The translations under genes and the position numbers were made by a program. Positions 1,575-37,923 of a stretch of 37,977 nucleotides of DNA are shown here, one piece after another; within the stretch, counting starts at the first letter, position 1, and every line of letters starts with the position of its first letter. Under the pieces are notes generated by a model. That model did no database searches and had not been told where the DNA came from. It was given only the letters and a program-made list of their open reading frames with translations. Location of the stretch: IMG/VR virus record IMGVR_UViG_3300030688_000065, positions 1 to 37,977 of that record; one strand, given 5' to 3'. Source of the DNA: a virus.

Positions 1575-1600
1575 AGCCCGCCATCGTCAGGTGGCGGGCT
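1575..1600 (+). other. Intergenic RNA hairpin
   Basis: AGCCCGCCA at 1575-1583 pairs perfectly with TGGCGGGCT at 1592-1600 around an 8-nt loop. It lies between the 374-aa gene and the HTH gene. No T-run follows, so it is not a standard terminator. It may be a processing site or a weak attenuator. Confidence 0.55.
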
Positions 1601-28633: not shown

Positions 28634-28641
28634 GGGTCTTA

Positions 28642-28672
28642 CTCCGGTGAGGTTGTGAGGTCCTCACCGGAG
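28642..28672 (-). promoter_or_regulatory. Hairpin sequestering the capsid ribosome-binding site
   Basis: On the mRNA (minus strand), the 5' arm is 28672-28662 and the 3' arm is 28652-28642 (CCTCACCGGAG), an 11-bp perfect stem with a 9-nt loop. The last four bases of the 3' arm are the GGAG of the capsid gene, 8 bases from its ATG. A scaffold-capsid attenuator is an alternative reading, but no T-run follows. Confidence 0.65.
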
Positions 28673-28688
28673 CCGGGGCGCTAGCGTG

Positions 28689-29663
28689 TTAGGCTATGCG
28701 GCCTTCCGACAGGGCGAGGTCGATGTTGGCTTCGATCCGCACGGCTTCTCCGGGGTTGCCCTTGAACTCGCCTCGACCTTGAGCCCGGTAGAACTGATCG
28801 ACCTCGGCGGCCGTCCAGATGCGGGTGGAGTCGTCGGCGCGGGTAGAGGGGGTCACCGCCTTGGAGCCAGCGGGGGAGGTCTGGCGTTCGAGCTGCATCT
28901 GAGCTTCGGTCTTCGCTGGCGGGGCGACAGGAGCCGCGGGCGGCGTGCCCTTGGCGATCCAGGTGTTGAACATCAGGGCCGTGCGCTTGGCGTCGAAGTT
29001 GTCAAACGCATTCTTCAGCATCTGCTGCCTGGTCAGGCCGGACATCTCGTCCACCTCCGCCAGCCAGCCGATGAAGCCGGGCTCAACGTTCACCGTCTCG
29101 TAGGTGGGCACCAGCGTCGCTAGCTCGCCCCAATACTTCTGACGGGTAGCCGCGGCGGTCTGCGCTGCGGTGTCACCTTGCGCCGCCTTGAGCGACGCAG
29201 TCTCCGCCTCCAGGCGCTTGATCTCGGCCGCCGACTTGTTCTCCGAGGCCGCCACGAGTTCAGCGGCTTTGCGGTGGATCAGGTCGACGAGATCGCCTCC
29301 GAAGGTCTCAGTATCGCGGTCCGTCACCGGAGCCAGTGGAGCAGGCGGAGCGACAACAGGTCTCGACGCCAGCTCGGCGGCGAGGGTCACGTTGCGCGCT
29401 TTGAGGTCCTTCACCTCGGCATGCAGGCGCGGAACATCCGCGTTGAACATACCTTGGAGTGTTAGGTACTTCGCCTTCCAGTCGGTGGTATCGACGACTG
29501 GTTCCACGACGGGTGCCGGGGCGATGGGCGCGACTGCGAGCGGTTCGGACTGAGCGTCTTCGGCCGGCGGGTCCAGCGGGGCGGCGTTAGCTGCCTCTAG
29601 CTGAGCGTCGAAGGCCTCAACTTCCTCGATCTGGCGCTGCAACTGCGCTGGAAGGTCTACCAT
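28689..29663 (-). CDS. Capsid scaffolding protein (324 aa)
   Basis: Acidic and Ala/Pro/Glu-rich with coiled-coil segments (WKAKYLTLQGMFNADVPRL, then AAEIKRLEAETASLKAAQ), ending in a short helical C-terminal region. It sits directly upstream of the capsid gene, the standard place for scaffold. I chose the ATG at 29663 (MVDLPAQLQ), which has GGAG 8 bases upstream; an ATG 12 codons earlier lacks a ribosome-binding site. Confidence 0.85.
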   Translation of the reverse strand: MVDLPAQLQRQIEEVEAFDAQLEAANAAPLDPPAEDAQSEPLAVAPIAPAPVVEPVVDTTDWKAKYLTLQGMFNADVPRLHAEVKDLKARNVTLAAELASRPVVAPPAPLAPVTDRDTETFGGDLVDLIHRKAAELVAASENKSAAEIKRLEAETASLKAAQGDTAAQTAAATRQKYWGELATLVPTYETVNVEPGFIGWLAEVDEMSGLTRQQMLKNAFDNFDAKRTALMFNTWIAKGTPPAAPVAPPAKTEAQMQLERQTSPAGSKAVTPSTRADDSTRIWTAAEVDQFYRAQGRGEFKGNPGEAVRIEANIDLALSEGRIA

Positions 29664-29738
29664 GTATAGCTCCTGCTCCGACGTCGGCTCTGGCCTCATG
29701 ATCGAGGCGGGCCGGGGATGGCGGTGTGCGGTCGCGGC

Positions 29739-35241: not shown

Positions 35242-35355
35242 ATTCCTGAAAAATAGGGGGCGCTCTATACGAAACAGGTAACAGTGCCGGCTTGATTAGT
35301 TTACGTGGGTCCATATGCCACCCCCCGGCCGACCATAACACCATTCCATCCGCCC

Positions 35356-35372
35356 ATTATTCCCGGAATAGG
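35356..35372. promoter_or_regulatory. Palindromic operator copy 1
   Basis: ATTATTCCCGGAATAGG matches the consensus ATTATTCCNGGAATAAT at all but the last two positions. It is 29 bp upstream of the candidate -35 box at 35401. Related sites occur at 36770 and 37315. Confidence 0.55.
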
Positions 35373-35512: not shown

Positions 35513-36154
35513 ATGACTACTCAATCCGTCATGCCCGTTGCTTCGCCTGAATTCATCGCGTCGCTCGGCAAAGATTACAACGCTAGCGTTGTCGCTCTCG
35601 ACAACGCCAAGGCCGCGTTGATTGAACTGTCCGGCGCTCAACTGCCTTTCTTGGTTCAGCGTCTGGACGGCATCGCCAAGGTCACTGAAGAGACTTGGGC
35701 GAGCGATTGGAAGGAAGCGCAAGAGGCCGCTTACAAGGCTTCGGGGCGCTCGAAGCAAACGGACGCGGCCAAGCTCGCCTTGAGCATGGGCTCGGCTGTC
35801 TCGCTCCTCAAGGTTGCCGTGATCGCACTCACCCATAACGTGCAACCCTTGAAGGGTGAAACGATCACAACCTACGTCAATCGCGCTCGTCCGATCTTGC
35901 AAGGGCGCGGGACGCTCAAGGGGAAGGTCAAGGAAGCGGCCGAACGCGAAAACCGCAAGGCTCCGGTCAACGCTGGCAAGGCGAAGCTAGACAGCGCCAG
36001 TGCGGCCTTTGCGCTCGCTGGCAAGGACCAAGCCTTCGCTGACAAGCTAGCGCGCGTCGCGGCCGACTATCGTGAGGAGTTCGAAGATTGGTTCGATATG
36101 CTCATGATCAAGGAAGCTCGCCGCGCGCCAGCGAGTGAGACTATCAACGCCTAA
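35513..36154 (+). CDS. Hypothetical helical protein, accessory gene 1 (213 aa)
   Basis: Mostly helical with many Lys, Glu and Ala (DNAKAALIELSGAQLPFLVQ, then ETITTYVNRARPILQGRG). The C-terminal half is basic, then acidic. I do not recognise a family. AAAGGAA lies 7 bases before the ATG. Codon use is less GC3-rich than the late genes (more TTG, CAA, GCT), so it may have another origin. Its stop codon is part of the intergenic repeat. Confidence 0.7.
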   Translation: MTTQSVMPVASPEFIASLGKDYNASVVALDNAKAALIELSGAQLPFLVQRLDGIAKVTEETWASDWKEAQEAAYKASGRSKQTDAAKLALSMGSAVSLLKVAVIALTHNVQPLKGETITTYVNRARPILQGRGTLKGKVKEAAERENRKAPVNAGKAKLDSASAAFALAGKDQAFADKLARVAADYREEFEDWFDMLMIKEARRAPASETINA

Positions 36155-36189
36155 CAACCTAGCGCCCTCGCATCATGTGCGAGGGCGCT
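36151..36189 (+). repeat. Intergenic repeat-hairpin unit 1
   Basis: CTAACAACCTAGC (36151-36163) leads into a perfect 12-bp stem AGCGCCCTCGCA / TGCGAGGGCGCT (36161-36172 and 36178-36189). The same leader and stem recur at 36410 and 36652. CCC TTA follows, not a strong T-run. Confidence 0.8.
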
Positions 36190-36210
36190 CCCTTATGTGC
36201 GAGAGACATC

Positions 36211-36408
36211 ATGGCTCAATATTGCATTCAATGCGCCGACGCGTTCGGCGTGGTAGGTTCCTACGCGTTTGAGGGCGAGACCTTTCCGCCGCCCGCGTCG
36301 CGCCAGCTAAGCCCGACCTACGCGGACACGCTCGACCTGTATCGTTGGCTGGACGCCAACGGGTGGGCGGTGCGCGGCTGGACGTTCGATCTAGTGCGCG
36401 TCGCATAG
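36211..36408 (+). CDS. Hypothetical small protein, accessory gene 2 (65 aa)
   Basis: I chose the ATG at 36211 (MAQYCIQCADAFGV), with GAGAG upstream; an in-frame ATG 36 bp earlier lies in the hairpin. The protein has CIQC, a possible zinc or redox pair, and a C-terminal half YRWLDANGWAVRGWTFDLV. No family recognised. Confidence 0.6.
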   Translation: MAQYCIQCADAFGVVGSYAFEGETFPPPASRQLSPTYADTLDLYRWLDANGWAVRGWTFDLVRVA

Positions 36409-36409
36409 C

Positions 36410-36447
36410 CTAACAACCTAGCGCCCTCGCACATGATGCGAGGGCGC
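36410..36447 (+). repeat. Intergenic repeat-hairpin unit 2
   Basis: CTAACAACCTAGC (36410-36422) is followed by an 11-bp stem GCGCCCTCGCA / TGCGAGGGCGC (36421-36431 and 36437-36447), 5-nt loop. CCTTTG follows. Nearly identical to unit 1. Confidence 0.8.
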
Positions 36448-36464
36448 GCCTTTGTGAGAGAGCC

Positions 36465-36650
36465 ATGCGCTTGAATTTAGACGGTGGAGAAACGCACCGC
36501 ATCGACGGCATCGCCGGGCGCGTTGTTCAGTCTGTGACCTGTGATCCATACGAAAAAATGGTGATCGAATTCACAGACGGTTCGCGCCTGATAATCCGCG
36601 AGGGCGGTCAAGTTGGATGGTTAGACCCATCCTTTACCGAAGGAGAATAA
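36465..36650 (+). CDS. Hypothetical small protein, accessory gene 3 (61 aa)
   Basis: A compact beta-rich protein: MRLNLDGGETHRIDGIAGRV, then MVIEFTDGSRLIIREGGQ. GAGAG lies just before the ATG, as in gene 2. It has no recognised family; the alternating strands suggest a small barrel. Confidence 0.6.
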   Translation: MRLNLDGGETHRIDGIAGRVVQSVTCDPYEKMVIEFTDGSRLIIREGGQVGWLDPSFTEGE

Positions 36651-36651
36651 T

Positions 36652-36700
36652 CTAACAACCTAGCACTATCACTCGCCCTCGCATGGAAACGTGCGAGGGC
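36652..36700 (+). repeat. Intergenic repeat-hairpin unit 3
   Basis: CTAACAACCTAGC (36652-36664) is identical to units 1 and 2. After a short insertion, GCCCTCGCA (36675-36683) pairs with TGCGAGGGC (36692-36700), followed by TTTCG. No gene follows directly, so this unit may end the transcript. Confidence 0.8.
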
Positions 36701-36769
36701 TTTCGTGTGCCTGGTCGCCGCGCCGTGGGTGTGTGAGCGCCAGCGAGAGGGTCGGCGCGCGTTCGCGAA

Positions 36770-36786
36770 ATTATTCCTGGAATAAT
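36770..36786. promoter_or_regulatory. Palindromic operator copy 2
   Basis: ATTATTCCTGGAATAAT, a perfect 17-bp palindrome with one central base. Same site as at 37315 and near-identical to 35356. Confidence 0.65.
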
Positions 36787-36895
36787 GTTACGGCATCACA
36801 CCACGCGAGGGCGCTGCGCGCGTTTTTCGCGTCGTTCGGTATGTAGTGTTTTTAGGTGTTAGCATGTTTGGTTTTTACTAATTACAAATCCCTTA

Positions 36896-36993
36896 CGCCA
36901 GAAGGGTTTGCGAGGGGTTCTATATATATATTTAGTGTAATTAGATAATTAGTAGCTGTTTTTGAGAGGCCCCCCCTTCTGGCGATTTTTTTT
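36896..36993 (+). terminator. Long-loop intrinsic terminator
   Basis: CGCCAGAAGGG (36896-36906) pairs perfectly with CCCTTCTGGCG (36974-36984), followed by A and eight T's (36986-36993). The 67-nt loop is very long for a terminator and contains one arm of the larger inverted repeat. Confidence 0.5.
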
Positions 36994-37066
36994 CTTGGCC
37001 GCCAACAAAAAAATCCATTGGCGGACAGGGGGGGTATACGTTTTGGGCTACTAATTATCTAATTAC
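36937..37066. repeat. Nested inverted repeats
   Basis: The outer arms at 36937-36956 and 37047-37066 are a perfect 20-bp inverted repeat (core TAATTAGATAATTAGTAGC). Inside, seven C's (36970-36976) face seven G's (37028-37034), and CCGCCAA (36999-37005) faces TTGGCGG (37018-37024). The three tiers are in register as one large cruciform or RNA stem. Confidence 0.8.
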
Positions 37067-37144
37067 CGAAAATCAATGGGTTACAGCGGCTATTAATAGC
37101 GGTTCGCAACTGGTTTTCGTGCCTTATTACAGCCTAGCATAGCA

Positions 37145-37165
37145 TAAAACCCTAAAACCCTAAAA
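37145..37165. repeat. AAAACCCT short tandem repeat
   Basis: TAAAACCC occurs twice, followed by TAAAA, an 8-bp unit repeated about 2.5 times. It lies in the AT-rich region before the regulator gene. Confidence 0.7.
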
Positions 37166-37246
37166 GTCTAGCCTAAGTTGAGTCCCTAGCCGGCCCACTC
37201 TAGGCCCAACTAAATACCCTCCAAGGCATTTAGCTAGTCCCTGCGA

Positions 37247-37275: not shown

Positions 37276-37314
37276 CTAACTTCCGCTGCTAATTACACCG
37301 GCAGCCCGCAAAAA

Positions 37315-37331
37315 ATTATTCCGGGAATAAT
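37315..37331. promoter_or_regulatory. Palindromic operator copy 3, upstream of regulator
   Basis: ATTATTCCGGGAATAAT, perfect; symmetry extends to 37313-37333. It ends 18 bp before the regulator ATG, and a half site AATTATTCC follows at 37359-37367. The position suggests autoregulation. Confidence 0.65.
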
Positions 37332-37350: not shown

Positions 37351-37923
37351 ATGCCCGCAATTATTCCCCCGCTCAAGGTGACGCTGTCGCAGGACACTCG
37401 CGACAAGCTCGACCAGCTGGCGGTCAGCCAGGACATTCCGCTGCGCGCCGTGCTCACGACGCTGATCCGGCTGGCGCACGCTAAGCACTTCTCTGGCGAC
37501 GCTGCGCCGACAATCCCCGGTGCGCCGCCCGCCCAACCCAAGCTCACCAAACCCGCGCAGAACCGCATCGCCCGCGCCGCGCGTGAGGAGGCTACCCGCC
37601 TCACCAACGAGACGGAGCAGCTGCGTGTCGAGTGGCTGAGTGGGATCGACACCTGCCGCGAAGTGACCGGCCAGACCCGCTGCCAGTTTCTCGACCTACC
37701 CGAGGGCACGCCCATCGACGATGTTATGGACGCCGCGGTTGCATGGGGTCAGGTCAACATCGTCGAGCCTAATCTCGCCAACGAGTACCACTGGGTCCGC
37801 AACTGGCGGATCAGCCATGGCGAGAACCTGGAGCCCTGGTATCACCCCATGGTGACAACCCGTGCCGAGCCGACCCCGCAGCTGGCTGCGTTCGAGACCG
37901 ACCTCGGCGTATTGGAGGACTGA
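37351..37923 (+). CDS. Ribbon-helix-helix-like regulator (190 aa)
   Basis: Residues about 8-45 read LKVTLSQDTRDKLDQLA followed by VSQDIPLRAVLTTLIRLA, the beta strand plus two helices of CopG/Arc-type ribbon-helix-helix proteins. The C-terminal 110 residues are helical with two cysteines and have no recognised family. I chose the ATG at 37351 with GGAG 5 bases upstream; the earlier in-frame ATG at 37258 has no ribosome-binding site and would place the operator in the coding part. Probably binds the palindromes nearby. Confidence 0.65.
   Translation: MPAIIPPLKVTLSQDTRDKLDQLAVSQDIPLRAVLTTLIRLAHAKHFSGDAAPTIPGAPPAQPKLTKPAQNRIARAAREEATRLTNETEQLRVEWLSGIDTCREVTGQTRCQFLDLPEGTPIDDVMDAAVAWGQVNIVEPNLANEYHWVRNWRISHGENLEPWYHPMVTTRAEPTPQLAAFETDLGVLED

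Follow-up and report, generated by a model that had tools for sequence, protein, structure and literature searches.

Repeated leader and hairpin modules behind three small genes of an uncultured podovirus-like phage: a probable operon with read-through hairpins

Several described genetic systems combine small genes, repeats and hairpins. In integrons, small genes each have a repeat and a hairpin behind them, and in the attC site paired core boxes, RYYYAAC and GTTRRRY, flank the hairpin. Phage morons are added genes that come with their own promoter and terminator. Intrinsic (Rho-independent) terminators, sometimes in tandem, place a GC-rich stem at the gene end ahead of a U-tract. Strong hairpins, mostly lacking a U-run, are also found between the cistrons of bacterial operons. 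As an example, U-less intercistronic stem-loops in the cellulosome operon of Clostridium cellulolyticum go together with more of the upstream transcript, and the downstream gene is still transcribed (excerpts of PMC4423207). Differential decay is likewise described within several bacterial operons, including puf of Rhodobacter and malEFG (excerpts of PMC5927463). A different type of element is the stoperator of Cluster A mycobacteriophages, where many short asymmetric sites are found in the genome, some in promoters and most not (excerpts of PMC6550527).

The window analysed here is an entire IMG/VR record of 37,977 bases. To judge from its sequence it belongs to an uncultured, tailed, podovirus-like phage, with a protein set that includes a head-tail adaptor or portal, terminase, major head protein, internal virion protein and primase/helicase. 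With lengths of 46-67 kb for many related records, this one is probably incomplete. Named matches are distant, the best being Rhizobium phage RHph_TM3_14A for the major capsid protein (MCP, 41%) and Pseudomonas phage Rollin for the large terminase subunit (TerL, 40.5%); Rollin has no divergent gene within the stretch examined. For comparison, 54 loci were collected via MCP and 80 via TerL. The closest record by sequence (L024) is 100% identical in both proteins. It stops just short of the three-gene region, its 5' end lying, by distance, at about 35.2 kb of the window, and is therefore unusable there.

The three genes are all on the plus strand: gene 1 (35513..36154, 213 aa), which is the first gene divergent from the terminase genes, gene 2 (36211..36408, 65 aa) and gene 3 (36465..36650, 61 aa). 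Our preferred reading, to which we give a probability of roughly 0.7, is that they form an operon in which two read-through hairpins stabilise the mRNA or terminate leakily and a third hairpin ends transcription. An earlier note on this DNA had pointed to an identical 13-mer and a stem behind each gene, and both hold up. The 13-mer CTAACAACCTAGC is present exactly at 36151-36163, 36410-36422 and 36652-36664 (plus strand) and nowhere else in the record, and none of 100 dinucleotide shuffles contained a copy. As the note had said, the first copy includes the stop codon of gene 1 (C-TAA-C); the second and third begin 1 base past the TAG stop of gene 2 and the TAA stop of gene 3, respectively. Hairpin 1 (36161..36189, plus strand) has a 13-bp stem as measured by script, starts 6 nt past the stop and ends in the tail CCCTTATG, which has no U-run. 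Hairpin 2 (36421..36447, plus strand) has an 11-bp stem 12 nt past the stop and a tail, GCCTTTGT, that is no proper U-tract. Hairpin 3 (36675..36703, plus strand) has an 11-bp stem plus TTT (TTTCGTGT), 24 nt past the stop, and is followed by TTTCGT. All three stems are GC-rich and have no mismatch. The hairpin stretches of units 1 to 3 fold at -28.2, -28.1 and -31.7 kcal/mol (z -3.9 to -5.0), and for each of them 0 of 200 shuffles were as stable as the native sequence. The 8 nt behind the hairpins contain 3, 4 and 5 T, and a terminator scan picks out unit 3 alone, units 1 and 2 falling short in the U-tract. The sole Rfam match was far under its gathering score.

The units are less uniform than the note supposed. 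The 13-mer and the CCCTCGCA arm are common to all three, but the spacer and loop of unit 3 differ from those of the others. The near-identity reported for units 1 and 2 amounts to 76% over 70 nt. Over 27 nt, hairpin 2 reproduces the core of hairpin 1 exactly in inverted (reverse-complement) form, with the loop flipped and the 13-mer not. Such exact inverse cores next to un-flipped leaders (36161-36189 and 36421-36447) may come from template switching at the palindrome. Both intergenic stretches are 56 nt long and contain the leader, the hairpin and the Shine-Dalgarno sequence of the next gene, by sequence GAGAG at 36201..36205 for gene 2 and GAGAGAG at 36456..36462 for gene 3 (both plus strand). 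The GAGAG-ATG seen earlier behind two of the units is thus present at genes 2 and 3, as an ordinary Shine-Dalgarno sequence with its start codon. Of 14 leaders tested singly against shuffles, units 1-3 and three relatives (L036, L089, L091) show a significant periodicity of 8 nt (CTAACAMC repeats); the remaining 8 do not, and no conclusion is based on it.

Similar elements exist elsewhere in the window. A fourth, diverged copy of the 13-mer, CTAACACGCTAGCGCCCC, in the leader CTAACACGCTAGC, is found at 28692-28680 on the minus strand, where it overlaps the stop of the gene at 28689-29699. This leader, also present in L024, sits between that gene and the major capsid gene, among structural genes, and a 12-bp U-less hairpin unlike those of units 1-3 lies ahead of the capsid gene (28641..28673, minus strand). 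Another U-less intercistronic hairpin (1575..1600, plus strand) stands between the genes at 444-1568 and 1622-1900. Overall, 7 of the 39 gene ends of the window combine a hairpin with a space of 20 nt or more before the next gene, against such a hairpin in 34 of 1000 random 90-mers, a control that ignored the gap condition. The five window hairpins between co-directional genes have 1, 3, 0, 3 and 4 T in the next 8 nt, and unit 3 has 5.

Neither genes 1-3 nor the protein encoded at 37351-37923 has a convincing family match, and no close protein relatives of genes 1, 2 or 3 are found in the viral_contigs collection. The predicted structure of the gene 1 product is all-helical at low confidence (mean pLDDT 65.7); its PADLOC and NCBIfam matches were weak and short and were treated as chance. 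Most of the length of gene 2 aligns with the beginning of a hypothetical protein encoded by the Brevundimonas phages Kabachok and Bambus (36% over 53 positions; E 5e-3 and 6e-2 in the collection), which suggests that gene 2 codes for a protein. A similarity of gene 2 to small ORFs of three relatives (L107, L110, L111) was not significant and was set aside. No relative of gene 3 was found. The GC3 values of genes 1, 2 and 3 are 0.71, 0.77 and 0.56, compared with 0.93, 0.87 and 0.80 for the MCP, TerL and primase genes, and gene 3 is the least certain of the three as a real gene.

Further features lie around the three genes. A near-perfect palindrome, ATTATTCC(C/T/G)GGAATAAT, flanks the putative operon at 35355-35372, 36768-36787 and 37313-37331 and looks like a phage-specific operator. 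Relatives have other palindromes in like places, ATTAATCGGGATTAAT in G011 and GGTTATCCCGGGATAACC in G024, and a GGGATTA-type excess is seen in L137 and L163. The ORF at 37351-37923, which encodes 190 aa, has an N-terminus that by eye resembles a ribbon-helix-helix DNA-binding domain, and ORFs that look similar occupy the corresponding position in L082 and L131. Between the three genes and this next gene lies an AT-rich region (36860-37200) with long inverted repeats and CCCTAAAACCCTAAAA repeats, a possible origin or control region.

In the operon that we propose, genes 1-3 would form a single small transcription unit, probably early and read away from the terminase genes, in which each cistron would be closed by a 3'-UTR module made up of a short G-poor leader at the stop codon and then a GC-rich hairpin. 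Because hairpins 1 and 2 have no U-tract and start only 6 and 12 nt from the stop, RNA polymerase would mostly read through them, and the next Shine-Dalgarno sequence is right behind. They would most likely be leaky terminators or stabilisers of 3' ends after RNA processing, and genes 2 and 3 would be expressed at lower levels than gene 1; the processing sites that the earlier note had offered as one of two ideas are thus possible and form part of this explanation. Given the footprint of a ribosome on its mRNA, a ribosome terminating at these distances would overlap or touch the 5' arms of hairpins 1 and 2, which could increase read-through as long as translation of the upstream gene continues. 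Hairpin 3, at 24 nt, would fold freely and, with some U's behind it, would be the real terminator. A consensus scan predicted no promoters ahead of genes 2 or 3, and the distances between hairpin and ATG (21 nt for gene 2, 17 nt for gene 3) leave too little room for one.

Units 1 and 2 have the architecture of stabilising stem-loops, being U-less, located between co-directional genes and with no downstream promoter of their own predicted. This is the likeness to the puf, malEFG and cellulosome operons; the difference is that this is a phage and that the same module recurs after three successive small genes, with a motif at the stop codon. Compared to intrinsic and tandem terminators, the GC-rich stem at the gene end is the same, and relatives have U-tailed and sometimes twin versions, but units 1 and 2 are missing the U-tract. 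Extra small genes bounded by terminator-like hairpins and variable among relatives also recall morons, from which genes 2 and 3 differ in having neither a predicted promoter of their own nor the space for one. Among the points against the operon reading, the U-tract of hairpin 3 is weak for a terminator, and the exact identity of the 13-mers exceeds the needs of a generic leader. Within the open-access library searched, on phage intercistronic hairpins, morons with terminators, stoperators, stabilising stem-loops and dispersed podovirus repeats, no account of the hairpin plan or the motif of this phage group was found.

The relatives allow the gene ends at this place to be compared. Homologues of gene 1 were found by sequence in 2 of the 50 related records searched (G011 and G024), diverged and at the same place. 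Here, the gene is followed by twin U-tailed intrinsic terminators and no small gene, and in G011 the second terminator is an exact copy of the first, 60 nt further on. In other relatives this position is occupied by a gene whose sequence is either unrelated or so diverged that kinship cannot be judged, so the comparison is by place and not by orthology. Most relatives have a G-poor leader and then one or two hairpins behind the gene that points away from the terminase genes. In L165, for example, a Burkholderiaceae MAG and the sole confirmed match in the genome_contigs collection, a 242-aa gene at the like place is followed by two U-tailed hairpins. A fixed-rule survey covered 32 gene ends, the 3 of the window and 29 of related loci, with the ends partly chosen by eye, and found a hairpin starting within 60 nt in 28 of them (25 of the 29 in related loci). 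The leaders contain 15% G and 40% C, against 27% G and 26% C for the regions. A U-tract is usual where no gene comes after the hairpin, which gives these hairpins the look of intrinsic terminators, whereas it tends to be missing in relatives' hairpins that precede a ribosome site and a small ORF; the three hairpins of the window agree with this pattern. The eight hairpins with a Shine-Dalgarno sequence and an ORF behind (two of them in the window) have 2, 2, 2, 2, 3, 3, 4 and 5 T in the next 8 nt, and the remaining 20 have a median of 5.5 (one-sided p 0.026); the spacer between stop and hairpin is also shorter where an ORF follows (p 0.023), though these p values are modest, and optimistic since the statistics treat related loci (L107, L110, L111) as independent.

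The survey started from 36 TerL loci. Seven were left out for having, by eye, no clear gene at the place (L096, L088, L124, L129, L131, L132, L162), as was L027, added later, and L104, L112 and L153 were left out as repeats of L102, L111 and L152. The rule found no hairpin in L036, L102, L121 or L128, and inspection by eye shows a U-tailed hairpin, imperfect or located later, in L036 and L121. Against the trend, six hairpins in the class where nothing follows have only 1-3 T (L142, L146, L159, L126, L137, L140); for some of these, judged by eye only, the reason is that another hairpin comes next or that the record ends there. L123, whose gene end is uncertain, has 5 T despite an ORF behind it. 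The same plan as in the window is found in L157, with a gene, a U-less hairpin, two small ORFs and a U-tailed terminator. The small ORF behind the first gene is present in some relatives and absent in others, which makes gene gain at this spot plausible. The array of the window would probably have come from duplication of the single or twin terminator of the relatives, with small ORFs gained between the copies. Eight relatives (L127, L130, L137, L140, L142, L151, L152, L159) have a CTACTATCA-like motif repeated behind the terminator at this place.

The 13-mer also belongs to an asymmetric motif, ANWNSCTAACA, that was unexpectedly found genome-wide (at, for example, 19735, 22229, 27637, 32172, 35210, 35225, 35385 and 36857). 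It is unlikely, in our view, that the leaders are DNA sites of a phage regulator that block elongation or mark promoters in the manner of stoperators, with the hairpins secondary. In its favour, CTAACA occurs 41 times in the window, where 7 are expected, and 18 of the 41 are between or at the edges of genes, in a gene list that leaves 3029 intergenic bases. Within genes there are 18 sense and 5 antisense copies, whereas 200 synonymous shuffles average 4.9 and 0.9 (maxima 10 and 4), so codon use is not the explanation on either strand. An A at position -5 is found at 30 of the 41 sites (p 1e-14) and in all four leaders. It recurs in L089 (15/26), L096 (15/24), L055 (10/16) and L043 (8/10; p <= 3e-4 each), is borderline in L047, L094, L027, L036 and L126 (p 0.01-0.04), and is not raised in L091, L127, L130, L107, L117, L040, L053 and L098. 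With a profile of 16 columns, 47 sites are detected in the window and 3-5 in Markov controls, although the profile had been trained on the same sites. The motif itself is also enriched in several relatives. In its number of sites (some tens), their shortness and asymmetry and their spread along the genome, the motif resembles stoperators. In contrast, the orientation of intergenic copies is mixed, copies ahead of late genes read TGTTAGCAT on the transcribed strand (several copies in this form stand a short way before late genes and in the divergent region), the excess is on both gene strands, and some sites have hairpins attached. Furthermore, no repressor was identified, the products of genes 1-3 and of 37351-37923 being without a convincing family, and several relatives have the leader-hairpin plan without a CTAACA excess. 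It is doubtful that the 13-mers are dispersed sites of a genome-wide transcription control in this podovirus-like clade, coupled to hairpins; if they were, this would be a stoperator-like system outside actinobacterial phages.

Less probable still is the first idea of the earlier note, that the small genes are cassettes exchanged through recombination at the repeats, which would be either homologous or site-specific. Genes 2 and 3 do lie between repeats, both direct and inverted copies are present (including the 27-nt exact inverse), and the variable small ORF together with the relative of gene 2 in unrelated jumbo phages would fit such exchange. However, the searches turned up no relative in which these repeats enclose different genes. 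An exact-pattern search of viral_contigs with CTAACAACCTAGCGCCC gave no other carrier of the module and a plasmid search was likewise empty, and CTAACANNCTAGC is present in 2 of 50 related records, one of which has the same MCP-side copy as the window. The identical stretches are short, and the same type of leader stands ahead of the capsid gene amid structural genes. As for integrons, GCCTAAC in the window resembles one attC box, but the partner box is absent, as the 150 nt around each of the three copies contain no GTTRRRY, and there was no tyrosine recombinase or integrase among the proteins scanned, which are part of the ORFs of a probably partial record. No sign was found that the repeats drive gene gain. 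The opposite outcome that the note had considered, relatives with the same three genes and no hairpins, was not seen either, as the relatives have hairpins of unrelated sequence. A recent copying of the 3' end with no role of its own, which the likeness of units 1 and 2 could suggest, is very improbable, given stems free of mismatches in the window and hairpins of unrelated sequence at the like place in most related gene ends.

In the operon reading, the striking repeat is explained as gene-end punctuation. The tendency of hairpins with few U's to accompany a following small ORF also points to a possible natural series in these phages, from terminator to read-through hairpin.
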